Origin: Taibaiella chishuiensis
GTDB lineage: Bacteria > Bacteroidota > Bacteroidia > Chitinophagales > Chitinophagaceae
Direction of reading: 5' to 3'
Assembly: GCF_003014535.1 (NCBI RefSeq)
Contig: NZ_PYGD01000006.1
Coordinates: forward strand, 186,001 to 250,000
DNA length: 64,000 bases
The notes below the pieces were generated by a model. The model was not told the DNA's origin. It did not search any database and saw only the letters and a program-made list of their open reading frames with translations. Below are positions 7,117 through 58,135 of this stretch, piece after piece. Every line of letters starts with the position of its first letter. Positions within the stretch are counted from its first letter, which is position 1. A program made the position numbers and the translations under genes.

Positions 7117-7387
7117 GTTGGGCTATCCGTGTTATTTTTTTGATTAAAATACGAAACAAAAAACACCTGTATTATTTGCGCCTGCCGGGACAAAAAAAAA
7201 AATGAAATAATTTTAAGTGCAACGAACAAACACGGGAAACAAAGGTCTGAAAAGGGTTTCAGCCCTTTCTATTTTTTGAAATGATCTATAGAATTTCAAA
7301 AATATACAGCAAAAGTCAAAACAGCGACCAACCTTTTTTTGCTTGCCCGGGTCTTACCTTACATCTAAACTAGATTCCCGAAAAAAT

Positions 7388-8257
7388 ATGAAAAGAAATC
7401 TCCTCTTCTTGAGCCTGCTGGGCTCGGGCCTGGCTATGCATGCCCAATCACTGACCGCTGTAAACAACCTCAGGTTATACGAGCATCACAGCTCCACGAT
7501 CAATAACGGCGCACCTTTCGGCTCCAATGCCAATGGATCGAAATCAGGGTATGACTTCGTAAACCGTGCGTACTTCGGCAGTTTCAATGCGGCAACCTTC
7601 GGCGCCTATACCAATGGCGAACAGGCAAACATCGATATGGTGGAGCACAACAGCAGGTTTGGTAACAACGGCAAATTCGGCATTACTTCCGGTGTAAGCA
7701 GTATCTGGAATGGCGATATCAAAGGCAACAACACGACGGTATGGATGGAAGCCCCGGCCAGCTTTAATTACAACAATGCCAATAACGTAAGCCAGATCGT
7801 TACGGCATTCAACCCTGCGACAGCCTCCAAGAGCATTGCAGAGATCAAAGAGAATACCGTCTACCTGGCACGTATACGCAACACCAATCTCTATGTAGCC
7901 ATGCGTGCGTATAACGTACACAATGTAACCGGGTCGGCAGCTATACAGGATGTCTATTTCGACTTCGATTACAAATACGCAACCTATGCACCAACCGGGC
8001 TGGAAGATAAAACGCTGGCTTCGGCACTGACCTTAAGCCCCAACCCTGCAACAGATCATATTACCCTGAAAAATACAACACAGCAGCCGCTTATAGCAAA
8101 AATGGTATCCGCTTACGGCCAGGTGATCCGCACCGTATCCGTATCGGGCAACCAGGACCTGGTGATGGATATAAACAGCATCAGCAGCGGTATCTATTTC
8201 GTTATTTGTTCGTTTGAAGACGGTCGTAGTTATACCCATAAGTTCATCAAACAATAA
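7388..8257 (+). CDS. Secreted protein of unknown function with T9SS sorting domain
   Basis: 289 residues from the ATG at 7388. Signal peptide MKRNLLFLSLLGSGLAMHAQ, cleaved around residue 20. The middle (~25-205) is rich in Asn, Gly and aromatic residues and shows no family I recognise; it is predicted beta-rich. The last ~80 residues form a type IX sorting domain (LTLSPNPATDHITL to SYTHKFIKQ). Upstream 7117-7387 is A/T-rich with poly-A runs and no gene. No catalytic motif was found. Confidence 0.85.
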   Translation: MKRNLLFLSLLGSGLAMHAQSLTAVNNLRLYEHHSSTINNGAPFGSNANGSKSGYDFVNRAYFGSFNAATFGAYTNGEQANIDMVEHNSRFGNNGKFGITSGVSSIWNGDIKGNNTTVWMEAPASFNYNNANNVSQIVTAFNPATASKSIAEIKENTVYLARIRNTNLYVAMRAYNVHNVTGSAAIQDVYFDFDYKYATYAPTGLEDKTLASALTLSPNPATDHITLKNTTQQPLIAKMVSAYGQVIRTVSVSGNQDLVMDINSISSGIYFVICSFEDGRSYTHKFIKQ

Positions 8258-8283
8258 AGAGTTCTACTGGAATAGAATGCCTG

Positions 8284-8312
8284 AAAAAAACCCCTGCAGT
8301 TCACTGCAGGGG
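8284..8312 (-). terminator. Intrinsic terminator for the VOC gene (minus strand)
   Basis: CCCCTGCAGT, 2-base loop, then its complement (8291-8312). On the minus strand the hairpin is followed by a run of seven T (8284-8290). It lies 29 bases after the VOC stop at 8342 and also sits between two convergent genes. Confidence 0.85.
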
Positions 8313-8341
8313 TTCAGGTATTAAAGTAAGGATAGGAAAGC

Positions 8342-9184
8342 TTAAGCCTGCTCCAGGTCGGCAATTACGAGTTTTTTCATTTTCAACAGCACCGGCATGA
8401 CACGCTGCGCCCGTTCAGGATCCTTAAGCAAAGTCGTCAGTGCTTTCGGTATGATCTGCCAGCTGACGCCATAACGGTCTACCAGCCAGCCACAGGCTAC
8501 TTCGCGACCACCATTATGGGTCAGTTCATCCCAGTACTGGTCGATCTGTGCCTGGTTATCGCATTCCACCACCATGGAGATCGCATCGTTAAAACCAAAC
8601 TTATGATCTAAACCGCTATCCATGGCCATCATCGTGTAATGATCGATATCAAACTGGGCATGCTTTACATAGTCGAGCGGTTCGCCTTCCCCTTCGCTAT
8701 AGTGAAGGATACCTTCTACCGATGATCCCGGGAATACACTGGTATAATAATGTACCGCCTCCGTGGCTTTGCCGGCGAGGGCCCCGGTAAACATCATCGT
8801 CGGACAGATCTTCTGTGTCTTATCCTCTTCCGTTGCGGTGAACAACTGCCAGGACACCCCGTATTTATCCTGGAGCCATCCGTACTTACTGCTCCAGGGG
8901 TAACTGTCGAGTCCCATCAATACCTGGGCGCCTTCGCTCAGCTTATTCCAGCTATGTTCGGTTTCTTCGGCCGTAGCCGCCACTACCATCAGCGATATGG
9001 AGGGATTGGGCAACGCTGTGGGCCCGTCATTCAGGAGCATCAGCTTTTGCCCGTGCACCTCGAGTTGGATTACGATAGGAGAAGTCTGCAATACGCGGGC
9101 CGATGCAAACGCGTCCTGGTAAAACGCTGAAGCCTCAGCAATCCTGCCTTTCAGCGTGAGGCAGGGATAAATAGCATTATTCAT
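8342..9184 (-). CDS. Two-domain VOC (PhnB-like) protein
   Basis: 280 residues from the ATG at 9184 (MNNAIYPCLTLKGRIAEASA). Two PhnB-type VOC domains are seen: residues ~3-120 ending DKYGVSWQLFT, and ~130-265 starting MMFTGALAGKATEAVHYYTS and ending VDRYGVSWQIIPKAL. The repeated YGVSWQ motif is the signature of the 3-demethylubiquinone-methyltransferase-like VOC group. Such proteins are metal- or small-molecule-binding and often described as drug-binding; no reaction can be assigned. It lies 35 bases downstream of the GyrI-like gene on the same strand, so co-transcription is likely. Confidence 0.9.
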   Translation of the reverse strand: MNNAIYPCLTLKGRIAEASAFYQDAFASARVLQTSPIVIQLEVHGQKLMLLNDGPTALPNPSISLMVVAATAEETEHSWNKLSEGAQVLMGLDSYPWSSKYGWLQDKYGVSWQLFTATEEDKTQKICPTMMFTGALAGKATEAVHYYTSVFPGSSVEGILHYSEGEGEPLDYVKHAQFDIDHYTMMAMDSGLDHKFGFNDAISMVVECDNQAQIDQYWDELTHNGGREVACGWLVDRYGVSWQIIPKALTTLLKDPERAQRVMPVLLKMKKLVIADLEQA

Positions 9185-9219
9185 GGTCGTATATTTTATA
9201 GTGGACGAAAAAAAACGGA

Positions 9220-9642
9220 TTAAATATGTGCTGTTGCTTCCTGCATCCTGACCATACAACGGCATAAGCCGCCATCGAGGTACCATTCGATACAAAAGCC
9301 GGCAGGATCAATGCGTTCGTCTGCAATCAATTTGCGGATCGCAATACCGATCTGCTCCGGATGCTGGTTATAAAACGGCACATCGATATAAAGATAAGCC
9401 CCCGCTGTAATCTCTTTCACCTGCAAACCGCCTGTCGCCAGGTCTTCGCCGGCCACGGCCGTTGTTGCCGCCAGGTAAATGATCTGTCCGTCGTAAGGCC
9501 AGGAGAGCCCGAAATAATTGCGTTGTTTATGAACAGGCAGCAAACGGTGTAAGCGTTCATGCGCCTGTTGAATGCCCTCCGGGAACGTATCGGCGGCAAG
9601 GCCATAGGTAAGCATAGATTCCGGTAGCTGCAGGATTTGCAT
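9220..9642 (-). CDS. GyrI-like effector-binding domain protein
   Basis: 140 residues from the ATG at 9642, supported by a -7 box TATGTTTG 19 bases upstream. The central part (FGLSWPYDGQIIYLAATTAV then LQVKEITAGAYLYIDVPFYN) resembles the effector-binding domain of AraC/MerR activators and SbmC/GyrI. In that fold, a beta strand with a G-x-Y-x pattern is followed by a helix that binds small molecules. There is no DNA-binding domain. It probably binds a hydrophobic ligand. The call rests on pattern only. Confidence 0.6.
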   Translation of the reverse strand: MQILQLPESMLTYGLAADTFPEGIQQAHERLHRLLPVHKQRNYFGLSWPYDGQIIYLAATTAVAGEDLATGGLQVKEITAGAYLYIDVPFYNQHPEQIGIAIRKLIADERIDPAGFCIEWYLDGGLCRCMVRMQEATAHI

Positions 9643-40541: not shown

Positions 40542-41350
40542 ACCCCATAAAAAAACAAGCCGAACGTTCGGTATTCACGGTTAAAGAAAAGATAAGCCTG
40601 AGCCCGCATTACACGCGGATCGTATGCCATATGTCCGACGAACAGGTATTATTGTTCAGCAGGGCCCGTGCCGGGGCCAACAATAAGATCTACCTGCCGC
40701 CACCCGGCATAACAACCGTAATCTTCCCGGGCGAGCCCGTACCCGAAGGCCTTTTGCCCGCGGTACAACGCACCTACACCACACGGCGCATAGACCCGGA
40801 CCGGCAGGAGCTGTGGGTCGACTTTGTAGCCCACGGCGATACCGGTCCTGCCTCGTACTGGGCACACCGCGCCGGGCCGGGCAGCCAATTGGGTCTTGCC
40901 ATGAAAATACCGGGCAGGCCACTGTTCCCGGAAGCAACCAATTACCTGTTTGTGGGTGATGCCACGGCGCTACCCGTTATCGCCACTATGCTGGAGCAGG
41001 TAGCGCCAACTGCACAGGTGACGACGCTGATAGAAGTACCCGGTAAAGCGGATGAATTGCCACTCCATACGAGCGCCAGCCTGCAGGCCCTCTGGTTCCA
41101 TAATGAACAACTGGGGCCCGGCAGCCTGCTCGCAGACGCTGTGCCAGAAATAACACTGCCGGCAGATACGTTTGTGTTTGTCGCTGCAGAGTATCATACC
41201 GCGAAAAGGTTACGGCACTATTTCAAAGAGGAATTGAGCTGGCCAACGGCTAACTATTCAATTGTTTCTTACTGGAAGCAGGGCGAATCGGAAGACCAGT
41301 CGGAGATGCAGCGCCGGGAGACGACTCCGGTAAAGCCAGCTAACCAATGA
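40538..41350 (+). CDS. Siderophore-interacting protein (FAD-dependent ferric reductase family)
   Basis: 270 residues from the ATG at 40538. FAD-binding domain: QRTYTTRRIDPDRQELWVDF, corresponding to the RxYTxR motif, then HGDTGPASYWAHRAGPGSQL. The NAD-binding lobe begins YLFVGDATALPVIATMLEQV and ends SYWKQGESED. Members reduce Fe(III)-siderophores in the cytosol. It is translationally coupled to the MFS gene. The last seven or so codons and the stop TGA lie in a copy of the hairpin repeat at 41349-41376 and its upstream flank, so the natural C-terminus was probably altered by the repeat. Confidence 0.9.
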   Translation: MNPIKKQAERSVFTVKEKISLSPHYTRIVCHMSDEQVLLFSRARAGANNKIYLPPPGITTVIFPGEPVPEGLLPAVQRTYTTRRIDPDRQELWVDFVAHGDTGPASYWAHRAGPGSQLGLAMKIPGRPLFPEATNYLFVGDATALPVIATMLEQVAPTAQVTTLIEVPGKADELPLHTSASLQALWFHNEQLGPGSLLADAVPEITLPADTFVFVAAEYHTAKRLRHYFKEELSWPTANYSIVSYWKQGESEDQSEMQRRETTPVKPANQ

Positions 41351-41480
41351 GATCCTTCGCTGCGCTCAGGATGACGACTCCCTTTGATGAGATGCTGCGC
41401 TCAGGATGACAACCGATTCTTCAACAGCTCAAAATTCAAAACTCAAAATTCAAAATTATCCCGCTGCGCTCAGGATGACG
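41349..41480. repeat. Cluster of three hairpin-repeat copies after the SIP gene
   Basis: Copies of the core GAGATCCTTCGCTGCGCT..AGGATGACA lie at 41349-41376 (full), 41389-41411 (lacking five internal bases) and 41462-41480 (5' truncated). Between the last two is a short A/T tandem of CAAAATT/CAAAACT units around 41430-41457. The core folds as ATCCT..AGGAT with an internal 2x2 mismatch and an inner GC/GC pair. The same family forms the array at 51.67-52.01 kb. Confidence 0.85.
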
Positions 41481-49057: not shown

Positions 49058-49396
49058 ATGAAAGCAATAAAAATACCGGTAGTGATCAACGGCGAACCAC
49101 ATACCGTAATCGCCCGTTATTTCGAAACTTCGGAATACGGCGCTATGACCGAGCTGAAAACGGAAGGCCATTTGCTATGCCTGGACAAAGACCTGCAGCC
49201 CTTTATGGGGTTCTGCGACAGCCTCGCCTGCGGAGCATTACCGCTTCGTCCCCCATCTTCGTGTATGCATACACGCCATAATCAACTGTTCCGGTCGCCG
49301 CAGATCTTTCAAAAGCAGGACAACAATCATAAAGATCATTGTCCAAAGTCAGCGAATGCCGGGCAAAACGTTTCTAATTTTGCCCCGTCTTTTTAA
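49058..49396 (+). CDS. Short hypothetical protein, possibly C-terminally altered
   Basis: 112 residues. The first ~55 residues look like a real protein: MKAIKIPVVINGEPHTVIAR, EYGAMTELKTEGHLLCLDKD. After that the composition changes to a low-complexity Ser/Pro/His tail. The tail also contains the TAATTTTG -7 box of the next gene (49375-49382) and the dyad at 49317-49330, which is unusual inside a functional gene. I therefore suspect a frameshift or truncation in the second half. No family recognised. Confidence 0.45.
   Translation: MKAIKIPVVINGEPHTVIARYFETSEYGAMTELKTEGHLLCLDKDLQPFMGFCDSLACGALPLRPPSSCMHTRHNQLFRSPQIFQKQDNNHKDHCPKSANAGQNVSNFAPSF
49317..49330. promoter_or_regulatory. ATGAY-N4-RTCAT dyad upstream of the UspA gene
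   Basis: AGGAC-AACA-ATCAT matches 9 of 10 specified positions. Its centre (49323.5) lies exactly 51.5 bases upstream of the -7 box edge at 49375, the same distance as at 52.1 and 58.1 kb. Confidence 0.6.
49375..49382 (+). promoter_or_regulatory. -7 box of the UspA gene
   Basis: TAATTTTG, an exact TAnnTTTG match, 36 bases before the ATG at 49419. Confidence 0.6.
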
Positions 49397-49418
49397 CGCA
49401 TGACCACAACATACCCTT

Positions 49419-50243
49419 ATGAAAACGATTATCGTTCCTACCGATTTTTCCGCCGCTGCTACAGATGCAGCGCATTATGCCATCGCAGTAGCGCAGCAGG
49501 TACAGGCCCGGATCGTGCTGCTGCACGTATTGCCGCTGCCCCTTATCGTACCGGAAGTGCCGCTGCCGCCCGATAGCTACGAACTGGCACTGACCGATGC
49601 CGGTCATACCCTGAAGGAACTTAAAGAAGAACTGGAAAACCGGGGCAACAACCAGGTACCCATTACCTGTAAGACCGTAACCGGCAGCTTCGTCGAAGAG
49701 ATCCGGAAATGCAATAACGAGCCCGATGTCTTTGCCATGATCATGGGCACGAGCGGGGCCGGCGCCGCAGAAGCCTTTTTCCTGGGCAGTTTCAGCCTTA
49801 CCGCAGCCGAAAACCTGGAACATCCCGTTATCGTGGTGCCGCCCGGTTACAGCTACAAAGGCATTCATAAAATAGGCCTGGCCTGCGATATGATTAATGT
49901 TGCAGAAACGGTACCCTTCGGCAGCATCAGGGCGCTGTTCGATCACTTCGATGCCCGGCTCGAAATTCTGTATGTAAGCGGACCCGGTGAACGTATGTAC
50001 CCGCAGGTACTGACCGAATCTAAATTTATCCAGAACAACCTGGCCGCATTACGGCCCGAGATCAGGATCACTACGAACGATAATATACGGGAAGGATTAA
50101 TGCATTTTGTACAACAGCAACAACTGGACCTGCTGCTACTGCTGCCCAAGGAACGTAATTTTGTAGAAAGCCTCTTTCACCGGAGCGTTACGAAAAAAAT
50201 GGTACTGCATCCCGAAGTACCGGTAATGATCCTGCATGCATAA
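49419..50243 (+). CDS. Tandem universal stress protein (UspA family)
   Basis: 274 residues with two Usp folds: ~1-145 (MKTIIVPTDFSAAATDAAHY with the MGTSGAG-type loop around VFAMIMGTSGAGAAEAFF), and ~150-274 (ILYVSGPGERM, ending KMVLHPEVPVMILHA). The first domain keeps a Gly-rich nucleotide loop; the second is degenerate. Usp proteins respond to starvation, hypoxia and redox stress. The promoter dyad at 49317-49330 links it to AdhP and the other nearby stress genes. Confidence 0.92.
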   Translation: MKTIIVPTDFSAAATDAAHYAIAVAQQVQARIVLLHVLPLPLIVPEVPLPPDSYELALTDAGHTLKELKEELENRGNNQVPITCKTVTGSFVEEIRKCNNEPDVFAMIMGTSGAGAAEAFFLGSFSLTAAENLEHPVIVVPPGYSYKGIHKIGLACDMINVAETVPFGSIRALFDHFDARLEILYVSGPGERMYPQVLTESKFIQNNLAALRPEIRITTNDNIREGLMHFVQQQQLDLLLLLPKERNFVESLFHRSVTKKMVLHPEVPVMILHA

Positions 50244-50349
50244 CAAGCATACCGGGTAAGGAGCAACCGGTACTGCAACAGGATTATGCTTGCGTTTTCC
50301 GAAGCAGGCCTTAATTTTACGTACCGATCAACACAATCCATTTACAACT

Positions 50350-51648
50350 ATGAAGCACATCCCCTATCAACAGGCAGAACAAGCCCTGCAACTCGTAAAA
50401 AGCGGCGACAGGGTATTTATACATGGCAGCGCAGCTACCCCCAGGGTACTGTTCAATAAACTGCTGGACAGGGCCGGCGAGCTTACCGACGTCGAACTGA
50501 CCAGTATCAGCACCTATGGCGATATCGACTGGAACCGCCCCGAAGTGCTGAACAGCTTTTCGCTGAACTCCCTGTTTGTATCGGGCAATGTACGGGAATG
50601 GGCCAATGGCAGTCATGGCAATTACGTACCCGTGTTCCTGAGCGAAATACCGGGGCTCTTCCGGGAGGGCATCCTGCCGCTGGATGTGGCGATCGTACAT
50701 GTATCGCCGCCGGATCAGCATGGCTATTGTACCCTGGGCACCTCGGTAGATGCTGCACTAAGCGCTGTCAGGAATGCGCCGATCGTGATCGCACAGGTAA
50801 ACCCGCGTATGCCGCGTGTGCTGGGAGACGGCATTATCCACTATTCGCAGTTTACAGCCATGGTCGAGGTCGATAGCCCGCTGCCGGAAGTAGACTACAG
50901 TACCGGCGCCGATGCCGTGGCCGAGCGAATTGGCACCCATGTGGCCGGACTTATCGAAGATGGTTCCACCCTGCAAATGGGTATAGGCAGTATACCCGAT
51001 GCGGTATTAAAACAACTTACCGGGCACAGGAGCCTGGGCATACATACCGAGATGTTCTCCGATGGCCTGGTACCGCTGGTACAAAAAGGCGTTGTTACCA
51101 ATGAATTTAAAAAAGTAAGACCCGGGAAGATCGTCAGCAGCTTTATCCTGGGTACACAGAAGGTGTATGACTTCGTACACGACAACCCTTATGTAAGCTG
51201 TATGGATGTGGCTTTTGTCAACGACAGCGATATTATCCGCAGGAATCCAAAGGTAATTGCGATCAACAGCGCGATCGAGATCGACCTTACCGGGCAGATT
51301 TGCGCCGATTCGATCGGCATTTATCAATATTCGGGCATCGGCGGGCAGATGGACTTTATGCGGGGCGCTTCGCTGTCGGAAGGTGGTAAACCGATTATCG
51401 CCATGCCTTCTACCACGAAGAAAGGCATATCCCGTATCGTCCCTTTCCTGAAACAAGGCGCCGGGGTGGTTACCACCAGGGGGCATGTGCATTATGTGGT
51501 TACTGAATATGGTGTGGTCAACCTGTATGGCCGTAATATGGACCAACGGGCGCGGCTGCTGATCAGCATTGCCCATCCCGATCATCGCGAGGCCCTGGAA
51601 CAGGCGTACCACGAGCGTTTCGGGAAATTGTACCGGGAGGTGCGGTAA
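50350..51648 (+). CDS. Acetyl-CoA hydrolase/transferase (4-hydroxybutyrate/acetate CoA-transferase type)
   Basis: 432 residues from the ATG at 50350. N-terminal domain: LLDRAGELTDVELTSISTYG; IVHVSPPDQHGYCTLGTSVD. C-terminal domain: TLQMGIGSIPDAVLKQL, the catalytic Glu234 in LGIHTEMFSDGLV, and SGIGGQMDFMRGAS. Members move CoA between acetate and other acyl groups, for example in fermentation. A weak -7 box (TAATTTTA, 50312-50319) precedes it. It may also be read from the UspA promoter. No terminator follows before the repeat array. Confidence 0.92.
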   Translation: MKHIPYQQAEQALQLVKSGDRVFIHGSAATPRVLFNKLLDRAGELTDVELTSISTYGDIDWNRPEVLNSFSLNSLFVSGNVREWANGSHGNYVPVFLSEIPGLFREGILPLDVAIVHVSPPDQHGYCTLGTSVDAALSAVRNAPIVIAQVNPRMPRVLGDGIIHYSQFTAMVEVDSPLPEVDYSTGADAVAERIGTHVAGLIEDGSTLQMGIGSIPDAVLKQLTGHRSLGIHTEMFSDGLVPLVQKGVVTNEFKKVRPGKIVSSFILGTQKVYDFVHDNPYVSCMDVAFVNDSDIIRRNPKVIAINSAIEIDLTGQICADSIGIYQYSGIGGQMDFMRGASLSEGGKPIIAMPSTTKKGISRIVPFLKQGAGVVTTRGHVHYVVTEYGVVNLYGRNMDQRARLLISIAHPDHREALEQAYHERFGKLYREVR

Positions 51649-51672
51649 CGCCGATAAAGCCGGCTTACCGAT

Positions 51673-52008
51673 GAGATCCTTCGCTGCGCTCAGGATGACA
51701 ACGAGCCCTTAGGTGCTTGTGCTTGACATGCCTGGTGAAGCCGGCTAGGGGATGAGATCCTTCGCTATGCTCAGGATGACAATCGTCCTCTTGATGATTG
51801 ACACGCTGGTAAAGCCGGCTTACTGATGAGATCCTTCGCTGCGCTCAGGATGACAATCGTCCTCTTGATACTTATTACTTGATACCTGATACTAAAAAAT
51901 GAGATCCTCCGCTGCGCTCAGGATGACAATGAACCCTTGGGTACTTGTGCTTGGCACGTTGGTAAAGCCAGCTAGGGGATGAGATCCTTCGCTGCGCTCA
52001 GGATGACA
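51673..52008. repeat. Array of five hairpin repeats with ~77-bp period
   Basis: Cores of 28 bases start at 51673, 51754, 51828, 51901 and 51981 (periods 81, 74, 73, 80). Each is GAGATCC-TTCGCTGCGCTC-AGGATGACA with single-base variants. Four units are preceded by a TGGTAAAGCCGGCT-like flank, so the repeat unit is larger than the core. The core forms a hairpin with a 2x2 internal mismatch. This is a REP/BIME-like intergenic element family. Confidence 0.88.
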
Positions 52009-52047
52009 ACAACCCTTTAATTATCTAATATCTCATACCTAACATCT

Positions 52048-52089
52048 CAATACCCAATACCCAATACCCAATACCCAATACCCAATACC
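52048..52089. repeat. Heptamer tandem repeat (CAATACC)6
   Basis: Six perfect copies of CAATACC. The array is non-coding, lies 90 bases upstream of the coiled-coil gene and is likely to vary in copy number. Confidence 0.92.
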
Positions 52090-52100
52090 GCCTGCCAATA

Positions 52101-52114
52101 ATGATCCCTGTCAT
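52101..52114. promoter_or_regulatory. ATGAY-N4-RTCAT dyad upstream of the coiled-coil gene
   Basis: ATGAT-CCCT-GTCAT matches the consensus at all 10 specified positions; centre 52107.5, exactly 51.5 bases upstream of the -7 box edge at 52159. Confidence 0.7.
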
Positions 52115-52158
52115 AGCTGCCCATGACCGGCGTTATTGTTGCCGCGGCCAACAACAGC

Positions 52159-52166
52159 TACTTTTG
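52159..52166 (+). promoter_or_regulatory. -7 box of the coiled-coil gene
   Basis: TACTTTTG, an exact TAnnTTTG match, 14 bases before the ATG at 52180. Confidence 0.6.
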
Positions 52167-52179
52167 AAGATTACGCAAC

Positions 52180-52560
52180 ATGAAACAAGAACTCCTACCG
52201 GGCAGCGGCGCTTACACAGCGGAAAGCAAAAAATGGCTGGCAACCCTTCATGAGCTGAAGACGGAGAATATCCGTTTGAAGGATCAGCTTTCACTAAGGA
52301 TCAGCGGCCCTGTAAGCCCTGAATTTATAGACCTGGCAGAACGCTTCCAACAACACTTCGTCGAAAAGGACCAGGTTATAGACCTGTTGCGGCATGAGAT
52401 CAATACCCTGATCCCCAGGCTCGCCGCACCGGCACAGGCCGGAGACGCGCTGTTGCAACAATGCAGGATACTGGAAAGGGACATGGAACGGCTGCTCCAC
52501 GAATTTCAGCAGATGCAACGCGCTTTTGCAGCACTGCATCCGGCCGATGGCCGCGCCTGA
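52180..52560 (+). CDS. Coiled-coil protein of unknown function
   Basis: 126 residues, mainly helical with heptad-like spacing: HELKTENIRLKDQLSL, then FIDLAERFQQHFVEKDQVID and RLLHEFQQMQRAFAALH. It has no signal peptide and no known domain. Its stop lies 5 bases from the stop of the convergent REC-CRP gene. The promoter has a perfect ATGAY-N4-RTCAT dyad, so it is expected to be expressed with the UspA and AdhP genes. Confidence 0.8.
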   Translation: MKQELLPGSGAYTAESKKWLATLHELKTENIRLKDQLSLRISGPVSPEFIDLAERFQQHFVEKDQVIDLLRHEINTLIPRLAAPAQAGDALLQQCRILERDMERLLHEFQQMQRAFAALHPADGRA

Positions 52561-52565
52561 GCGCA

Positions 52566-53624
52566 TTAGTTGAACATCTGTTCCAGCCGGGTATAGTCCA
52601 GGATCCTGATCTTACCCCCTTCCAGGCTAACCAGGTTTTCCTCTTTCAACTCCCCCAACATCCGGATCAGCGACTCTTTAGCCACACCCGCAATGGCAGC
52701 CAGGTTCTCGCGCGACAGGTCGATCTGGAAAGCCGGATCGTTTTTAGCATTGTACTTTTTGTATAAGGTAACCAGGGTATCGGCTACTTTCTTACGCAAG
52801 GAATTATAAGCAATGGCCAGCAACTGCTCCTCCCGGTCGTCGACATTACGGGCCAGTATGCCGATAAACTTTCTCATCACCGAAGGATTACTCCCCAGCA
52901 GCTCCTCGAACTCGGTACGGGGTATGATGGCCAGTTCCGTATCCTCTAGCGCTTCGGCGGTATCGCGGTAGATACTTCCTTCCAACAAAGGAAGATAACC
53001 GATAAAGTCGCCTTCGTTAAACAGCCCTACAATCAGCTCCTTGCCGTCATCATTCCGTTTAAACGTCTTTACCTTGCCCTTTTGCACATAAAACAGGCGC
53101 GAGGGATGGTTGCCTTCGGTATAGATAACCTGTTTCTTTTTATAACGGTTGATGCTCCGGCCTTCTTTCAGCGCCTCCAGTTCATCCTTTCCCGAAGCAA
53201 TACTCATCAGTTCGCTTACGCCCTGCGCGTTGCCTGGGAATTGCTGTTTCAGTTGTTCCGCCTTCTTCAGGCGCACTTCTATGGCATGCAGCAATTCGGT
53301 ACCGTCGAACGGTTTGGTAATATAGTCGTCGGCGCCCATCTCCATACCCCTCCGTATCTCGCTGCGCTCCGACCGGGCGGTAAGAAAAATAAAAGGTTTC
53401 GTTTGCAGATCGTTATGCTTCTGTACCATATGCAATACGCCATAACCATCCAGTACAGGCATCATGATATCGCACAGGATCAGGTCCGGCTTTTCCCGGA
53501 TGGCCCGGGCCACGCCATCTTTACCATTTTCCGCAGTAAACACGAGGTAACCTGCCAGGTCAAGGATCTCCGCCATATTCTCCCTGATCTCTGCATTATC
53601 TTCAATCAGTAATATCTTTTTCAT
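52566..53624 (-). CDS. Response regulator with receiver and CRP-type DNA-binding domains
   Basis: 352 residues. Receiver domain 1-120: acidic pocket E8-D9, phospho-acceptor D52 (LILCDIMMPVLDG), T82 and K104 (YITKPFDGTE). A cNMP-type beta-roll (~150-260, KKKQVIYTEGNHPSRLFYVQ) and a Crp HTH (~300-340, SRENLAAIAGVAKESLIRML) follow. The sugar-phosphate cassette is incomplete, so phosphorylation rather than cAMP is the likely input. The start overlaps the end of the kinase gene by 23 bases, giving a two-component pair. It is the likely regulator that binds the ATGAY-N4-RTCAT dyads at neighbouring promoters. Confidence 0.93.
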   Translation of the reverse strand: MKKILLIEDNAEIRENMAEILDLAGYLVFTAENGKDGVARAIREKPDLILCDIMMPVLDGYGVLHMVQKHNDLQTKPFIFLTARSERSEIRRGMEMGADDYITKPFDGTELLHAIEVRLKKAEQLKQQFPGNAQGVSELMSIASGKDELEALKEGRSINRYKKKQVIYTEGNHPSRLFYVQKGKVKTFKRNDDGKELIVGLFNEGDFIGYLPLLEGSIYRDTAEALEDTELAIIPRTEFEELLGSNPSVMRKFIGILARNVDDREEQLLAIAYNSLRKKVADTLVTLYKKYNAKNDPAFQIDLSRENLAAIAGVAKESLIRMLGELKEENLVSLEGGKIRILDYTRLEQMFN

Positions 53625-55224
53625 ATATACCAGTCGGTTCTTTTAAGGTAAAAATAAGCTCAAAGCGGGTACCGGCGCCCAGGCTGCTGGTACAGGTAAT
53701 GGTACCGTTCATCAGTTCGGCATACTTGCTTACGATATGCAAGCCCAGGCCCGTGCCCTGGATATGGGTTACGTTGGAACCGCGGAAGAAACGTTCGAAC
53801 AGGTGTTGCTGGTCTTCTTCCGAGATGCCCATACCCTTATCCGTAACGGTCAGTATAAAATATTGGCCGGTATGCCGGCTGTGCAATCCGATCACCGCGT
53901 TTTCGGGTGAGAACTTTATAGCATTGGAGAGCAGGTTCATCACGATATGCTTCATCAGTGAAGGATCCAGCTCGACCATATGACCGCCTTCGCAAACATA
54001 ATCTATATGCTGCCCGCTTTTCAGCAAGCCGCTCAGTTCGCCTGCAATCTGCTGCAGGTGCTGCTGCATATCGAAAGTGCTGTAGCGCACCTGGATCCTG
54101 CCCTCTTCAATCCTACCCACAGACAGGAAATCATTCAGGATATCGGTAAGGGTATTAACTGCCGAAACAATGCGCTGCACGTGCTTTTCCCGTTTCGGGT
54201 GCTCTTCTTTGGTTTCGTATTTGGAAACCAGGTAAGCCGAAGACAATACGGTACTGAGCGGCGTGCGGAACTCGTGCGAGGCCATGGATACGAAGCGGGA
54301 CTTCAGCTCGCTGAGCTCTTTCTCCTTCTCCAAAGCCAGCCGCAGGTCGGTTTCCGCTTTTTTACGTTCAGATATATCCATGGCAATACCCAGGTAGCCT
54401 TCGATCTCGTCCTGCGCATTACGCATAGCCGTAAAGGTTTGCGATACCGGTATACGGCGTTCGTCCCTGCGGATATAAACCAGCTCCCTTTCGTTGGGCT
54501 GGCCCGTCCTGGCTTTCTCTACCAGGTCGGCAAGACCGGTATCCGACTCCGCCAGGAACAAGGAAGGGCGCTCCTTACCGATCACCTCGGCTGCAGCGTA
54601 CCCCAGTTGCATTTCTGCCGCGGGGTTAAACATCTTGATTATCCCTTCACTGTCCGTAACATAGATAATAGCCTCTGCATGATCCCAGATATTATTGAGA
54701 AAGATATTGATGCGGTTCAGTTCCGCATCCTTGGCTTCGGTCTGCGCGATAACGGCAGCCAGCTGACTAACCGTGCTGGTAAGGGTTTCCGTACGTTCCC
54801 CGATCTTTTTTTCCAGTTCTTCGTTCAACTGCTGCAGGGCCAGTTCCGCCTCTTTACGTTTGGATATATCACTCAGGAAAGCGATCACATATTTACCCTG
54901 TTCGGTTTCATAATTGCCCAGGCTTACTTCAACAGGGAACTCGCTCCCATCCTTCCGCACAGCATACAGGTCCATACCCATGCCCATAGGCCTGGTTTTG
55001 GGATGCTCCTTATACAAGGCCACATGATGTACATGCCGCTGGTGGAAGCGTTGCGGGATCAGCAGCTCGATACCCTGGCCGAGCAATTCTGCTTCGGTAT
55101 AACCAAACTGTTTCAGCAGGAAAGGATTGACCAGCACGATATGACTCTGTTCGTCCGCTACCATGATACCCATAGAAGCGTTATTGAACAATGCGTCGAA
55201 CCCGATCCCGGTAACTTTATTCAT
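53602..55224 (-). CDS. Cytosolic PAS-PAS sensor histidine kinase
   Basis: 540 residues, no membrane segment. PAS1 (~5-125) includes LIPQRFHQRHVHHVALYKEH and RKDGSEFPVEVSLGNYE. A coiled linker is followed by PAS2 (~175-290, IYVTDSEGIIKMFNPAAEMQ) and HisKA with the H-box FVSMASHEFRTPLSTV (H317). The HATPase_c domain has the N-box MKHIVMNLLSNAIKFSPE and G-boxes (DKGMGISEEDQ, GTGLGLHIVSK). H64 of PAS1 aligns with the proximal heme histidine of FixL; this hints at, but does not prove, heme binding. It is coupled to the receiver-CRP gene. A TATATTTG -7 box lies 19 bases upstream. Confidence 0.93.
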   Translation of the reverse strand: MNKVTGIGFDALFNNASMGIMVADEQSHIVLVNPFLLKQFGYTEAELLGQGIELLIPQRFHQRHVHHVALYKEHPKTRPMGMGMDLYAVRKDGSEFPVEVSLGNYETEQGKYVIAFLSDISKRKEAELALQQLNEELEKKIGERTETLTSTVSQLAAVIAQTEAKDAELNRINIFLNNIWDHAEAIIYVTDSEGIIKMFNPAAEMQLGYAAAEVIGKERPSLFLAESDTGLADLVEKARTGQPNERELVYIRRDERRIPVSQTFTAMRNAQDEIEGYLGIAMDISERKKAETDLRLALEKEKELSELKSRFVSMASHEFRTPLSTVLSSAYLVSKYETKEEHPKREKHVQRIVSAVNTLTDILNDFLSVGRIEEGRIQVRYSTFDMQQHLQQIAGELSGLLKSGQHIDYVCEGGHMVELDPSLMKHIVMNLLSNAIKFSPENAVIGLHSRHTGQYFILTVTDKGMGISEEDQQHLFERFFRGSNVTHIQGTGLGLHIVSKYAELMNGTITCTSSLGAGTRFELIFTLKEPTGIYEKDITD

Positions 55225-55242
55225 GACAGGAATTTAATGCCG

Positions 55243-55250
55243 CAAATATA
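55243..55250 (-). promoter_or_regulatory. -7 box of the kinase/response-regulator operon
   Basis: TATATTTG on the minus strand, an exact TAnnTTTG match, 19 bases before the kinase ATG. No ATGAY-N4-RTCAT dyad is found at the expected positions here, so this operon seems not to be autoregulated by that motif. Confidence 0.6.
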
Positions 55251-55342
55251 CCAATAACCCCGCTCCTATCCCGGTCTGCACCGGAAAATAACGCGTTACG
55301 GGGCCTTGCTGCACAGAAAGTTAAGCTTAGTAAACGTTACCG

Positions 55343-55356
55343 ATGATATAAATCAT
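55343..55356. promoter_or_regulatory. ATGAY-N4-RTCAT dyad upstream of the 55410 operon
   Basis: ATGAT-ATAA-ATCAT, a full consensus match and also an FNR-like TGAT-N4-ATCA site. Its centre (55349.5) is 29.5 bases from the -7 box edge at 55379. This is 22 bases closer than at the other promoters and corresponds to about -43, the class II position. Confidence 0.7.
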
Positions 55357-55378
55357 TGCAGGAGCGGAAGCGGGGTAC

Positions 55379-55386
55379 GAACTTTG
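55379..55386 (+). promoter_or_regulatory. -7-like box of the 55410 operon
   Basis: GAACTTTG, one base off TAnnTTTG, 23 bases before the ATG at 55410. Confidence 0.5.
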
Positions 55387-55409
55387 TACCCGATCTAAAT
55401 AATCATGTT

Positions 55410-55838
55410 ATGGAACTGCATATCATTGAAGACGATCTTATCTGCAATATACAGCTGGCCTTCCGGGAACATTATCCCTGCCTGGACCTGTGGTTTTATA
55501 AAAACCCTTACCAGACGGGCATTACGCCCCTACAGCCGGAAAAGCTGGATCAACAACTGCCCATCGCCGAGATCACCATGTTTCATAACGGCGGTTATAT
55601 CGATATCAGCCCGGACCGTTGCCTGGCCGGTGTGGAAGCCGATTTTTTTCATAAGTTCGGCCTCTGCGTACGGGTAATGCGTCTGAGCGGCGAACCGCCT
55701 TCGTCCTTGAACGGTAGCCATAACCCCAGCCTGCAACAACTGAATGATAGCGGCTTTAACAAGGCATCATCTTTAACACCGTATAACTCCGGAACGGCCC
55801 CCCGGCGGAATATCCCCTCTTCCTCATCCAATATCTGA
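55410..55838 (+). CDS. Conserved hypothetical protein of the stress cluster
   Basis: 142 residues from the ATG at 55410. The pattern MELHIIEDDLICNIQLAFRE, LDLWFYKNPYQTGITPL, GGYIDISPDRCLAGVEADFF, FGLCVRVMRLSG and the tail SLQQLNDSGFNKAS recalls a Bacteroidetes family of small alpha/beta proteins, where the usual form is a FGL-x-VQVFRKSG strand and a TLxQQNxxG tail (recalled from memory, no name). The function is unknown. It stands 4 bases from the Hsp20-like gene and is controlled by the dyad at 55343-55356. Confidence 0.75.
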   Translation: MELHIIEDDLICNIQLAFREHYPCLDLWFYKNPYQTGITPLQPEKLDQQLPIAEITMFHNGGYIDISPDRCLAGVEADFFHKFGLCVRVMRLSGEPPSSLNGSHNPSLQQLNDSGFNKASSLTPYNSGTAPRRNIPSSSSNI

Positions 55839-55842
55839 CCCT

Positions 55843-56208
55843 ATGTCATTCGAAAAACCCTGCCGCATCTGCAACCACCTGCCCCTGGCAGCACCGGTAT
55901 CCCTGCCGGCCGTTACCGCCAACCTGAAAGAAGTAAACGACCGTTACGAGTTGCGGGTAATGATACCGCAGGCCGGGCGGCGCAGTTATTTCGTGATTAT
56001 TACCGGGGGTACCTTGTATGTTTACGAAGAAAATACAGCTACACCGGACCATAACTTATTGCTGGCCAGCCTAACGTTGCCTGCCAATGTGCTGCAGGCA
56101 AGGGTTATCGCCCTATACCGGCCTTACGGGCTAAAGATCCTGATGCCTATCGCCGCGCAGGACGGCGCCACCATCCAGGTGCCACTGATCAGGGGCGGCC
56201 TGGTGTAA
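55843..56208 (+). CDS. Divergent Hsp20 (alpha-crystallin)-like protein
   Basis: 121 residues. The central and C-terminal part has the small-heat-shock pattern: NLKEVNDRYELRVMIPQAGR (start of the crystallin strand), then GGTLYVYEENTA, FTRTF-like LASLTLPANVLQARVIALYR and GLKILMPI as the last strand. Unusually the N-terminus carries CRICNH (C7, C10, H12), a possible metal or redox site. Probably a holdase chaperone with an added thiol/metal motif. Co-transcribed with the 55410 gene. Confidence 0.7.
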   Translation: MSFEKPCRICNHLPLAAPVSLPAVTANLKEVNDRYELRVMIPQAGRRSYFVIITGGTLYVYEENTATPDHNLLLASLTLPANVLQARVIALYRPYGLKILMPIAAQDGATIQVPLIRGGLV

Positions 56209-56365
56209 AAAGCAGGTATTGTCTACATCACCCCAGCCACTGCATAAAATTGTCCCGGCGGGTAAAATACGGTAACTTTAGGTTGTGAATTTCCCGGGTC
56301 GCTGCAGGAGCAGCACCGGTGATGTGATATCCAACAGATCGTTTCCCCAAACCCCATACGCAGCA

Positions 56366-56677
56366 ATGAATGCTTTCGCCAATTTAATCAATAGTAAAGA
56401 ACCGGTACTCGTCGACTTTTTCGCTACCTGGTGCGGCCCCTGTAAAATGATGACCCCCATCCTGGAGCAGGTCAAGAAAAACCTGGGTGAAGCGATCAGG
56501 ATCGTAAAGGTAGATGTAGACCGCAATACGGCTGTGGCCCAGCAGTTCCAGGTACAAGGCGTGCCTACACTGATCCTGTTCCGGGAGGGCAAAGTACTCT
56601 GGCGGCAATCAGGCGTTGTACAAACCCAGCAACTCATCAGTATTATTAAACAATACGGTGCTCCCGTCAACCGCTAA
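56366..56677 (+). CDS. trxA: Thioredoxin
   Basis: 103 residues from the ATG at 56366. Active site WCGPC at residues 22-26 (VDFFATWCGPCKMMTPILEQ), cis-Pro in VQGVPTLILFREGKVLWRQS, as in cytosolic thioredoxins. It reduces protein disulfides and is itself reduced by thioredoxin reductase, which is not in this window. A -7-like TAACTTTA (56273-56280) precedes it. It is in a run with the 55410/Hsp20-like genes, separated by 157 bases. Confidence 0.93.
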   Translation: MNAFANLINSKEPVLVDFFATWCGPCKMMTPILEQVKKNLGEAIRIVKVDVDRNTAVAQQFQVQGVPTLILFREGKVLWRQSGVVQTQQLISIIKQYGAPVNR

Positions 56678-56718
56678 ACTATGTCTGCCGAAAGTCTCAT
56701 TTCTGGAAAAGATTCCTG

Positions 56719-56949
56719 TTGCGCTCCTTCCTGGTCGGATGCGGATTTTATATCCTCAGCGTATTGGTGCTGCTGCTTTTCCGCGGCCCCTTGCATATGC
56801 TGGCTGCCGATGTGTTCCACCTGGACGATGCCTCCTGGTGGAAGATCGTGCTGGCCTTCCTGATCGGGGCCAAGCTGATCCTGGTATTCCTGCTGCTTAC
56901 CCCCGCCCTGGCCTTGCATTGGTGCGGTAAAACAAAAGAGAACCGGTAA
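56719..56949 (+). CDS. Small membrane protein (DUF6868-like)
   Basis: 76 residues with two hydrophobic helices (GCGFYILSVLVLLLF and WKIVLAFLIGAKLILVFLLL). The alignment of LRSFLVGCGFYILSVLVLL and the second helix to DUF6868 patterns is from memory. The start is doubtful: the marked codon is TTG, and the upstream ATG at 56681 is in another frame that soon leaves the family pattern, so a short frameshift near the start is possible. Function unknown. Confidence 0.55.
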   Translation: MRSFLVGCGFYILSVLVLLLFRGPLHMLAADVFHLDDASWWKIVLAFLIGAKLILVFLLLTPALALHWCGKTKENR

Positions 56950-56964
56950 CCCTGTTCTCTTTTG
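56933..56964. terminator. Bidirectional terminator overlapping the end of the small membrane gene
   Basis: CAAAAGAGAAC, 10-base loop, GTTCTCTTTTG, between the small membrane protein gene and the convergent AdhP gene. The stem overlaps the last codons of the former. Confidence 0.82.
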
Positions 56965-56997
56965 CACATTAAAGACCTGGCAGTTCCTGGTAAACAA

Positions 56998-58032
56998 TCA
57001 GGGTGTCGCGATCTGCAGCACAATGCGTCCTGCTATCGTACCGCTTTTCATTTGCTCCAATACGGTATTGATATCTTCCAGCCGGGCTGTATGTACCGTT
57101 GGCTTTACCTTGCCCTCAACGGCAAAGGCTATCGCCTCCTGCATATCCTTACGCGTACCGACTATAGAACCGCGTATCGTGTACCGGTTGAGCACCGTAT
57201 CAAAAATGGGCAGGTCGAAGCTACCGGGCGGCAAGCCGTTCAACGAGATCACGCCTTTGCGGCGCAGCGCCGAAAGGCCCTGTGAAAAAGCAATTGGCGA
57301 TACCGCAGTCACCAATACACCATGCATACCCCCGGTTTCGCGTTTCAGGAAATCGCCCGGGTCCTGCCTGGCGGCATTCACCGTAAGATCGGCGCCCAGT
57401 CTCCGTGCCAGCTCCAGTTTATCGTCGGCTATATCGATAGCCGCCACGTGCAGGCCCATAGCCTTGGCATATTGCACCGCCAGGTGCCCCAGGCCCCCTA
57501 TGCCTGATACCGCCACCCATTCGCCGGGTTGGGCTTCGGTTTCCTTTAGTCCTTTATAGACCGTAACACCGGCGCAGGTGATCGGCGCCATTTCTTCAAA
57601 ATTGATACCGGCCGGGAAGCGGGCCACATAACGCGCATCGGCTACTACATATTCCGCATAACTCCCGTCCACGCTGTACCCCCCGTTTTGCTGCGCCTCG
57701 CAAAGCGTCTCCCAGCCGGTAATACAATATTCGCAACAACCACAGGCACTGAACAGCCAGGGCACACCTACGATATCGCCTTCTTTAACCGGGCCCGCGT
57801 TTTTGCCCAGGGCCACGACATACCCCACACCCTCGTGCCCTGGAATCAAAGGCAGGCGGGGTTTTACCGGCCAGTCGCCGTTACAGGCATGCAGATCGGT
57901 ATGACATACGCCGCTACTGATAAGCTTAACCAGGACCTGGTGCTCGCCCGGTTGTTTTACAGGAACCTCCTCGATTTGCAGGGGCGTTCCGAAAGCATGA
58001 AGCACTGCGGCTTTCATCGTTTTTGGTATCAT
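56998..58032 (-). CDS. adhP: Zinc-dependent alcohol dehydrogenase AdhP
   Basis: 344 residues; an internal ATG at 58017 is an alternative start. Catalytic zinc ligands: C43 (GVCHTDLHAC) and H66 (IPGHEGVGYVV) with the third Cys in ITCAGVTVYK. Structural zinc: C97, C100, C103, C111. The Rossmann motif VSGIGGLGHLAVQYA follows. It interconverts ethanol and acetaldehyde with NAD, useful under low oxygen. Upstream lies a dyad ATGAT-AGCT-GTCAG (58122-58135, 9 of 10) placed exactly as before the UspA and coiled-coil genes. Confidence 0.95.
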   Translation of the reverse strand: MIPKTMKAAVLHAFGTPLQIEEVPVKQPGEHQVLVKLISSGVCHTDLHACNGDWPVKPRLPLIPGHEGVGYVVALGKNAGPVKEGDIVGVPWLFSACGCCEYCITGWETLCEAQQNGGYSVDGSYAEYVVADARYVARFPAGINFEEMAPITCAGVTVYKGLKETEAQPGEWVAVSGIGGLGHLAVQYAKAMGLHVAAIDIADDKLELARRLGADLTVNAARQDPGDFLKRETGGMHGVLVTAVSPIAFSQGLSALRRKGVISLNGLPPGSFDLPIFDTVLNRYTIRGSIVGTRKDMQEAIAFAVEGKVKPTVHTARLEDINTVLEQMKSGTIAGRIVLQIATP

Positions 58033-58069
58033 CGGTTAATACTTTAAGGGTAGAAAAAAATACTACCGG

Positions 58070-58077
58070 CAAAGTAA
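58070..58077 (-). promoter_or_regulatory. -7-like box of adhP
   Basis: TTACTTTG on the minus strand, one base off TAnnTTTG, 37 bases before 58032. Its upstream edge (58077) is 51.5 bases from the centre of the dyad. Confidence 0.5.
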
Positions 58078-58121
58078 TACCATACGGCAGGCGCGGACAA
58101 TGATAACGGCCATCTGTGACA

Positions 58122-58135
58122 CTGACAGCTATCAT
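58122..58135. promoter_or_regulatory. ATGAY-N4-RTCAT dyad upstream of adhP
   Basis: On the transcribed (minus) strand it reads ATGAT-AGCT-GTCAG, 9 of 10 specified positions. It shares TGATnnCTGTCA with the site at 52101-52114 in the same orientation relative to transcription. Confidence 0.65.

Follow-up and report, generated by a model that had tools for sequence, protein, structure and literature searches.

A conserved tandem-dyad promoter around a receiver-CRP response regulator of Taibaiella chishuiensis, and a candidate low-oxygen circuit in Bacteroidia

Genes and promoters of the locus

The window analyzed here is a stretch of 64,000 nucleotides from Taibaiella chishuiensis, a member of the Chitinophagaceae (assembly GCF_003014535.1, contig NZ_PYGD01000006.1, positions 186,001 to 250,000 of the forward strand). 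It carries an operon for a PAS-PAS histidine kinase and a response regulator in which a receiver domain is fused to a CRP-type protein (hereafter RR-CRP). As stated in a preliminary description made from the sequence, this operon lies in the middle of a gene cluster, surrounded by promoters with a shared dyad at fixed distances from a -7 box. The promoter system to which they belong is real and conserved, and there is a strong candidate for the circuit behind it. The genes concerned are as follows.

49419..50243, + strand: uspA-type gene (Usp, PF00582, two matched stretches, E 1e-25)
50350..51648, + strand: gene of the acetyl-CoA hydrolase/CoA-transferase family (PF13336, PF02550)
52180..52560, + strand: small coiled-coil-like gene, termed cc
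52566..53624, - strand: receiver-CRP response regulator, RR-CRP (Response_reg, cNMP_binding and HTH_Crp_2)
53602..55224, - strand: PAS-PAS histidine kinase, overlapping the RR-CRP gene; its first PAS domain (PAS1) is like those of the heme sensors DosP and FixL
55410..55838, + strand: small protein without a Pfam match
55843..56208, + strand: Hsp20-like small protein without a Pfam match, BLAST-similar to proteins resembling Hsp20 behind the same promoter
56998..58032, - strand: adhP, alcohol dehydrogenase (NCBIfam AdhP equivalog, 356 bits against a cut-off of 344)

The preliminary description reported four copies of the dyad ATGAY-N4-RTCAT, at 49317-49330, 52101-52114, 55343-55356 and 58122-58135. 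All four are present, with 9, 10, 10 and 9 of the 10 specified positions matching, and their centres lie exactly 51.5, 51.5, 29.5 and 51.5 bases ahead of the -7 box in the order uspA, cc, small-protein gene and adhP. The accompanying assignment of class I activation to three of these promoters and of class II to one gives way to a tandem arrangement, since the uspA, cc and adhP promoters also hold a second dyad. Upstream of these three genes, two TGAY-N4-RTCA dyads with at most one mismatch each are placed 22 base pairs (bp) apart, centred 51.5 (distal) and 29.5 (proximal) bases ahead of the -7 box. Because all three carry both dyads, the two spacings are halves of one arrangement and not alternatives. 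In the small-protein promoter the proximal dyad is perfect and the distal copy, TAAGCTTAGTAA, is degenerate. The elements are:

49318..49329, + strand: uspA distal dyad GGACAACAATCA, centred 51.5 bases before the box; top own-genome match of the outside-built profile described below
49340..49351, + strand: uspA proximal dyad TGTCCAAAGTCA, centred 29.5 bases before the box
49375..49382, + strand: uspA -7 box TAATTTTG
52102..52113, + strand: cc distal dyad TGATCCCTGTCA
52124..52135, + strand: cc proximal dyad TGACCGGCGTTA
52159..52166, + strand: cc -7 box TACTTTTG
55322..55333, + strand: degenerate small-protein distal dyad TAAGCTTAGTAA, three mismatches to TGAYNNNNRTCA
55344..55355, + strand: small-protein proximal dyad TGATATAAATCA
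55379..55386, + strand: small-protein -7 box GAACTTTG, one mismatch to TAnnTTTG
58123..58134, - strand: adhP distal dyad TGATAGCTGTCA, also a profile match
58101..58112, - strand: adhP proximal dyad TGGCCGTTATCA
58070..58077, - strand: adhP -7 box TTACTTTG, one mismatch to TAnnTTTG

The combination of dyad and spacing exceeds chance, as the preliminary description required of it: three tandem promoters with a box (at most two dyad mismatches summed and one in the box) occur in the real window, against a mean of 0.005 and a maximum of 1 in 200 first-order Markov versions. The 14-base dyad with at most one mismatch is found 13 times in the window, compared to a shuffle mean of 5.3, a number reached by one of 100 shuffles. 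As a genome-wide marker the dyad by itself was rejected, showing no enrichment (20 places versus 22 for the reversed control), so that the signal sits in dyad, spacing and box together.

The promoter code in RR-CRP neighbourhoods

Forty neighbourhoods of RR-CRP relatives, approximately 20 kb in length except for two shorter ones, were taken from genomes of the same family and compared with the window. When exact TGAY-N4-RTCA motifs were positioned relative to the 595 TAnnTTTG boxes of this combined set, 27 were centred at 51.5 and 17 at 29.5 bases (motif starts 57 and 35 bases upstream of the box), the next highest value among 150 offsets being 4; with the window removed, 26 and 17 remained. 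With one mismatch allowed, the real motif occurred 49 and 39 times at the two offsets, against 0-3 for six control motifs; elsewhere the highest control value was 10, at offset 0, where motif and box overlap. Furthermore, among 48 promoters with an exact box and a distal dyad (at most one mismatch), 41 contain a proximal dyad (at most two mismatches) at exactly +22, while any of 21 other offsets tested yields at most 4 of 48. The 13 loci of named genomes that match RR-CRP over its length among the 80 loci listed (L272-L284) behave alike, with the exact dyad found four times at each of the two offsets and at most once at every other. The shared dyad at fixed phases, in positions that fit CRP/FNR activation, thus recurs in related genomes. 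With its dyads on the same helix face and at a fixed distance to the core promoter, the tandem, which is the rule, has the layout of a CRP/FNR-type promoter for two dimers. The Usp-like gene beside RR-CRP in Aquimarina and Salinimicrobium has the proximal dyad only.

Base frequencies, those of this promoter set being taken only from promoters whose proximal dyad has at most four mismatches, show that the base 5' of the distal dyad is A at 0.39-0.52, C at 0.30-0.35 and T at 0.11-0.18, while A at its 3' outer position reaches 0.09-0.11. The outer A and T are therefore mere preferences, and the firm motif is TGAY-N4-RTCA. The FNR-like core proposed earlier holds as far as TGA-N6-TCA is concerned, but the outer base differs from the T...A of the FNR/FixK box TTGAT-N4-ATCAA, as that box is given in a passage of PMC7888657. 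The sequence TAnnTTTG has been mapped at -12 to -5 in Flavobacterium (PMC9723704, main text); on this basis the dyads would be centred at -41.5 (proximal) and -63.5 (distal). The downstream half-site of the proximal dyad enters a T-rich -33 region (T 0.85, T 0.52, G 0.43), an overlap that is expected for a class II activator; a -33 TTTG element is named in a passage of PMC7366714.

Gene clusters recurring in the neighbourhoods comprise the coiled-coil gene (24 hits), Usp-type genes (9 and 7), Hsp20-like (9), CcoN-like (8) and baeRF1-like genes (7), where names other than those of window relatives are readings of the sequences. Relatives of cc occur in 19 of the 40 neighbourhoods, mostly tail-to-tail with the regulator. 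Directly upstream of cc, a dyad (at most two mismatches) with a box (at most one) is present at either spacing in 11 of 20 rows, window included. A small-protein relative in a sister genome has the same promoter type (L046 at 12989; distal 1, proximal 0 and box 1 mismatches). No dyad immediately precedes the adhP ortholog in L050, which stands second in a run of three genes headed by a tandem promoter at 13081; in G114, a single tandem promoter precedes the run baeRF1-like gene, adhP and cc.

Sites elsewhere in the genome

The own genome was searched with a composite of two TGA-N6-TCA dyads 22 bp apart followed by TAnnTTTG. On contig 8, the ccoNO cluster holds two exact distal dyads, each accompanied by a weaker proximal dyad and a box with one mismatch. 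One is situated before ccoNO, the other before the gene that comes ahead of a heavy-metal ATPase (read from its sequence as CcoI-like). In the sister genome G001, counterparts of the genes at this locus adjoin the RR-CRP operon. Pattern matches L093, L097, L098, L102 and L108 lie inside long open reading frames (ORFs), are probably chance and were set aside.

A profile, R1, was built from 79 tandem promoters, none from the own genome, and run on that genome (5.84 Mb) and two genomes of the same genus, with 150 first-look candidates scored per genome (150 of 796 in the own genome), a scope that applies to all R1 results. Its own-genome matches ranked 1, 2 and 4 are the promoters of uspA (E 3.9e-4), cc (6.3e-3) and adhP (0.089), among six with E up to 10. 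The third match (E 0.053; G000:C1:289021-289067, L111/L386, contig 1) lies before a small receiver-domain-like protein; this site has an exact proximal dyad and a one-mismatch box. Six of 11 R1 matches in G001 fall within 21 kb around its RR-CRP, and the same-genus genome G101 has four, on four contigs (best E 0.07). R1 was discarded as a complete regulon finder, as it reported three of the four window promoters, the small-protein site and the two cco sites being absent.

Genes behind the promoters

Genome-wide, 89 promoters were gathered from 29 of 30 loci and from 60 places chosen by hand, and hence non-randomly, among the matches listed. Of these, 64 had a proximal dyad with at most two mismatches; after removal of three without an ORF and two duplicates, 59 downstream ORFs were scanned, some of them cut at the end of the stretch. 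They include 11 matches to COX1/CcoN (cbb3 oxidase subunit I), nine to FixO, six to Usp and three to pyridoxamine oxidase, two each to FixS (CcoS), HemN, SQR and Crp-type regulators, and single cases such as a P-type ATPase, OmpW and pyruvate phosphate dikinase. The proposed stress/redox regulon is accordingly upheld in part: usp, adhP and chaperone-like genes are included, whereas the cbb3 oxidase, HemN and CcoS content points to low-oxygen respiration rather than general stress.

The RR-CRP regulator

The acidic pocket, phosphorylatable Asp and Lys of a response-regulator receiver are all found in RR-CRP, with D9, D52 and K104 invariant in 20 of 20 rows and position 82 occupied by T in 17 and S in three. 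The recognition helix of the window protein is GVAKESLIR, and most relatives have GTA(T/K)ES.IR; these forms are nearly identical to the GTATE(S/T).IR that prevails in standalone FNR-like proteins. Several other Crps have helix forms of the ...REN or ...RET type, and the Mucilaginibacter RR-CRP departs with GMATETVSR. The likeness of the RR-CRP and FNR-like helices fits, without proving, a common DNA site. An origin of RR-CRP as an offshoot of the FNR-like clade was considered and dropped, given that the tree (midpoint root, bootstrap not settled) places it in a separate long-branched clade nearest to other standalone Crps.

Many standalone FNR-like relatives carry C-x2-C-x8-C, some without the third Cys. 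RR-CRP lacks the N-terminal Fe-S Cys cluster of FNR, the receiver occupying its N-terminus, and is not a separate CRP-type protein like FixK, as its CRP part is fused to that receiver. Judged by these features, the putative activator belongs neither to FixK nor to FNR. In cAMP-CRP, cAMP is contacted by Gly-Glu and Arg-Ser; the corresponding stretch of RR-CRP, GDFIGYLPLLEGSIYRDTAEALEDTE, seems by eye to be without the Glu and Ser, on residue roles as we take them to be. Histidine kinase relatives are present in 34 of the 40 neighbourhoods, and the H-box His in 34 of 34 rows.

The PAS kinase

The kinship of the kinase PAS domains was judged on sequence matches to solved heme PAS domains. Window PAS1 matches E. 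coli DosP (6.8e-14), FixL (7.9e-12) and the multi-sensor kinase PAS 10jx (8e-12) in the PDB, with blue-light PAS domains far weaker (6.2e-5). PAS1 is homologous to the FixL PAS and has a candidate proximal heme His. The residue aligned with the DosP heme-ligand His is conserved in 33 of 34 family rows and 13 of 13 rows including named genomes, the window being counted in both; two L079 kinase rows had been removed before these counts (36 to 34, window included). The position of the distal Arg220 of FixL is Met in the window kinase; across the 34 rows it is Met in 22 and Arg in one, and across the 13 rows it is Arg in seven. Both positions are ones that we take to be the heme-ligand and FixL residues. 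On this evidence PAS1 of the window kinase is predicted to be of the heme oxygen-sensor type.

The kinases beside RR-CRP in Mucilaginibacter, Arcticibacter and Sphingobacterium possess both the His and the Arg, and those of Mucilaginibacter and Sphingobacterium are clearly FixL-like, with matches to FixL of 1.6e-31 and 5.8e-30. The Mucilaginibacter locus (L278, 7098 and 7118-9609) has the kinase first, then RR-CRP and a matching promoter, followed by a dehydrogenase-like gene and a HemN-like gene, the dehydrogenase being D-lactate dehydrogenase-like and both names being sequence readings. A similar dehydrogenase-like gene occupies the same place in Arcticibacter and Sphingobacterium (L279 7107; L284 7121).

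Proposed circuit

What is observed is the arrangement of the promoters and its conservation, the kinds of genes behind them, the pairing of kinase and regulator genes, and the relationship of the PAS domain by sequence. From these we consider it probable that a low-oxygen regulon is controlled by a FixL-type kinase together with a regulator that amounts to a fused 'FixJ-FixK'. The adjacent PAS kinase would most likely sense oxygen, or nitric oxide (NO) or redox state, through heme bound to its FixL/DosP-type PAS domain. Low oxygen (or NO) would alter the kinase such that the receiver is phosphorylated, which would set the binding of the CRP part to both dyads and lead to recruitment of polymerase. 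A CRP/FNR-type activator, most likely RR-CRP in the own genome, would bind as two dimers separated by 22 bp, i.e., two helical turns. The targets thus switched on would be cbb3 oxidase, CcoI/CcoS, HemN, Usp and chaperone-like proteins, and fermentation-type dehydrogenases.

Site numbers and alternative explanations

In 147 genomes of the family, the exact distal dyad with box occurs 400 times versus 29 for the reversed pattern, and an RR-CRP match is present in 107 (presence was defined by E below 1e-90 in this set and below 1e-60 in the phylum set, and for FNR-like proteins by E below 1e-60). Site number tracks the presence of RR-CRP or an FNR-like protein: the 88 genomes with RR-CRP only hold 288 sites (control 19), the 19 with both 79 (control 3), the 17 with an FNR-like protein only 24 (control 3), and the 23 with neither 9 (control 4; G078, counted here, holds an RR-CRP-like gene piece at a contig edge). 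Mutual exclusion of the two proteins was rejected, being no more than a tendency (19 genomes with both, 88 and 17 with one, 23 with neither; Fisher p 0.004, a test that, like the site counts, treats genomes as independent and ignores kinship). In a phylum draw of 198 genomes, the class of the window was taken, from named relatives, to be Bacteroidia. Of its 32 genomes with a full RR-CRP, 29 have the proximal dyad with box (194 sites against 7 in the control), as have 16 of its 17 genomes without one (73 sites against 4); the 149 genomes from other classes contain 58 such sites (control 7).

Several of these results weigh against the proposed circuit. The sites in FNR-like-only genomes and in class-mates without a full RR-CRP indicate that another Crp/Fnr can use the code, and the proximal-spacing sites in class-mates and other classes that this code extends beyond RR-CRP; it is apparently shared by other Crp/Fnr proteins, and its assignment to RR-CRP is not exclusive. 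The exact distal site is absent from 11 of the 107 RR-CRP genomes, a signal is absent directly upstream in nine of the 20 cc rows, and the own genome holds two exact distal and no exact proximal sites with a perfect box. Profile R1 is silent on the small-protein and cco promoters, whose boxes are imperfect, RR-CRP is not nested in the FNR-like clade, the Arg220 position of the window kinase is Met, and kinship is ignored in the counts. The sites in FNR-like-only genomes and in class-mates could be taken to mean that the tandem sites belong to a standalone Crp/Fnr, Cys-bearing and FNR-like or other, with the RR-CRP gene merely nearby or regulating something else. A candidate exists in the own genome, where a standalone Crp/Fnr gene (C2:609113) has an exact distal dyad and a perfect -7 box in its divergent upstream region, facing away (G000:C2:608940-609004, - strand, L374). 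However, no FNR-like protein was found in the own genome at E < 1e-60 (best 37% identity, E 2.6e-42), and in 61 of the 88 RR-CRP-only genomes relatives of the FNR-like query are no better than E 1e-39, yet 189 sites are present (control 15), although more distant standalone Crps are possible in these genomes. Moreover, both the window and G001 have R1 matches gathered around RR-CRP, while G101, which lacks RR-CRP, has no exact distal site and only its four scattered R1 matches. Ownership of the sites by a standalone protein therefore appears improbable.

Somewhat less improbable, if still doubtful, is a circuit built as proposed whose signal is NO, general redox, light or energy state, and which would control a stress regulon. 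The Met in the window kinase and in most family rows agrees with this, as do the Usp, AdhP, chaperone-like and thioredoxin genes, which suit several stresses; PAS domains bind many ligands, and 10jx scores like FixL. On the other hand, the nearest PDB relatives of PAS1 are heme oxygen sensors, blue-light PAS domains match far more weakly, the heme-ligand His is almost invariant, and cbb3 oxidase is the commonest target, joined by CcoS and HemN. An origin of the four dyads by chance, or as copies of a repeat element, is a thought prompted by the lack of genome-wide enrichment of ATGAY-N4-RTCAT and the abundance of degenerate 14-mers in the window; it is refuted by the positional peaks and also opposed by the 400 versus 29 count, the +22 pairing, the profile matches and the Markov test, which leaves it a negligible probability.

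Other features of the locus

The acetyl-CoA hydrolase/CoA-transferase gene is possibly co-transcribed with uspA; a butyryl-CoA:acetate CoA-transferase model matches its product below the cut-off. Transcription from the small-protein promoter may extend into a thioredoxin gene (56366-56677) that separates the Hsp20-like gene from adhP. Five copies of GATGAGATCCTTCGCTGCGCTCAGGATGACAA, at 51670, 51751, 51825, 51898 and 51978 (51670-52009; 73-81 bp spacing), are located between the CoA-transferase gene and the cc promoter, with a sixth at 41346-41377, all six having 0-2 mismatches. A perfect 7-bp tandem repeat, CAATACC x 6 (52048-52089), lies immediately 5' of the cc promoter dyads.

Comparison with known systems

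At class I/II promoters of E. coli CRP, the proximal site is centred at -41.5 and a distal site lies on the same helix face. The promoters described here resemble these in both respects and differ in that the tandem is the rule, the distal centre is at -63.5 and there is no sign of cAMP control. The DosR regulon has Usp and Hsp20 members, and the output domain of its regulator is a NarL/LuxR-type helix-turn-helix, whereas that of RR-CRP is a CRP. The DosR/DevR-type dormancy regulon of actinobacteria is likewise a hypoxia-type response-regulator regulon (PMC5069765). The FNR/FnrL core regulon of alphaproteobacteria, as outlined in part of PMC2908626, shares cbb3 oxidase, heavy-metal ATPase, cbb3 maturation protein, UspA, oxygen-independent coproporphyrinogen oxidase and OmpW as targets, and its regulator gene is often beside targets, but RR-CRP has a receiver domain in place of an Fe-S type Cys N-terminus. 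The proposed circuit would work like FixL-FixJ-FixK of rhizobia and hFixL-FxkR-FixK, which, according to passages of PMC7888657, also combine a heme-type PAS kinase, a response regulator and a CRP/FNR-type activator of cbb3 genes, with a box that is, as here, of the dimeric TGA-N6-TCA type; the core TGAY-N4-RTCA thus agrees and the flanks of TTGAT-N4-ATCAA do not. The present system differs in that receiver and CRP activator are one protein, that promoters are predicted to take two dimers as a rule and have the Bacteroidia -7 box TAnnTTTG, and that Met occupies the FixL Arg220 position in the window kinase.

In a Flavobacterium transcriptome, cbb3 and heme-pathway genes are strongly up on oxygen limitation, and in its main text a term search met with neither Crp nor Fnr nor response regulator (PMC9723704). 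MalR-type CRP/FNR proteins of Flavobacteriales and Saprospiraceae are treated in PMC8510549, in whose available passages 'receiver' does not occur; neither cNMP nor Crp occurs in those of PMC4558063. A description of the RR-CRP/tandem-promoter system was not found in the open-access literature, subscription papers and preprints being outside the search.

To our knowledge, the control of high-affinity respiration in aerobic Bacteroidia seems little worked out. We lean, with reserve, towards a general scheme in which low-oxygen respiration in Bacteroidia would be governed by a FixL-type kinase and a fused FixJ-FixK regulator acting on a two-dimer code (-63.5 and -41.5), interchangeably with standalone FNR-like proteins, such that a genome has one, the other or both. 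The analysis yields a candidate sensor, a candidate regulator and a promoter code precise enough for target prediction from sequence. It also offers a natural example of one promoter that seems to be read both by a one-component FNR-like regulator and by a fused two-component one.

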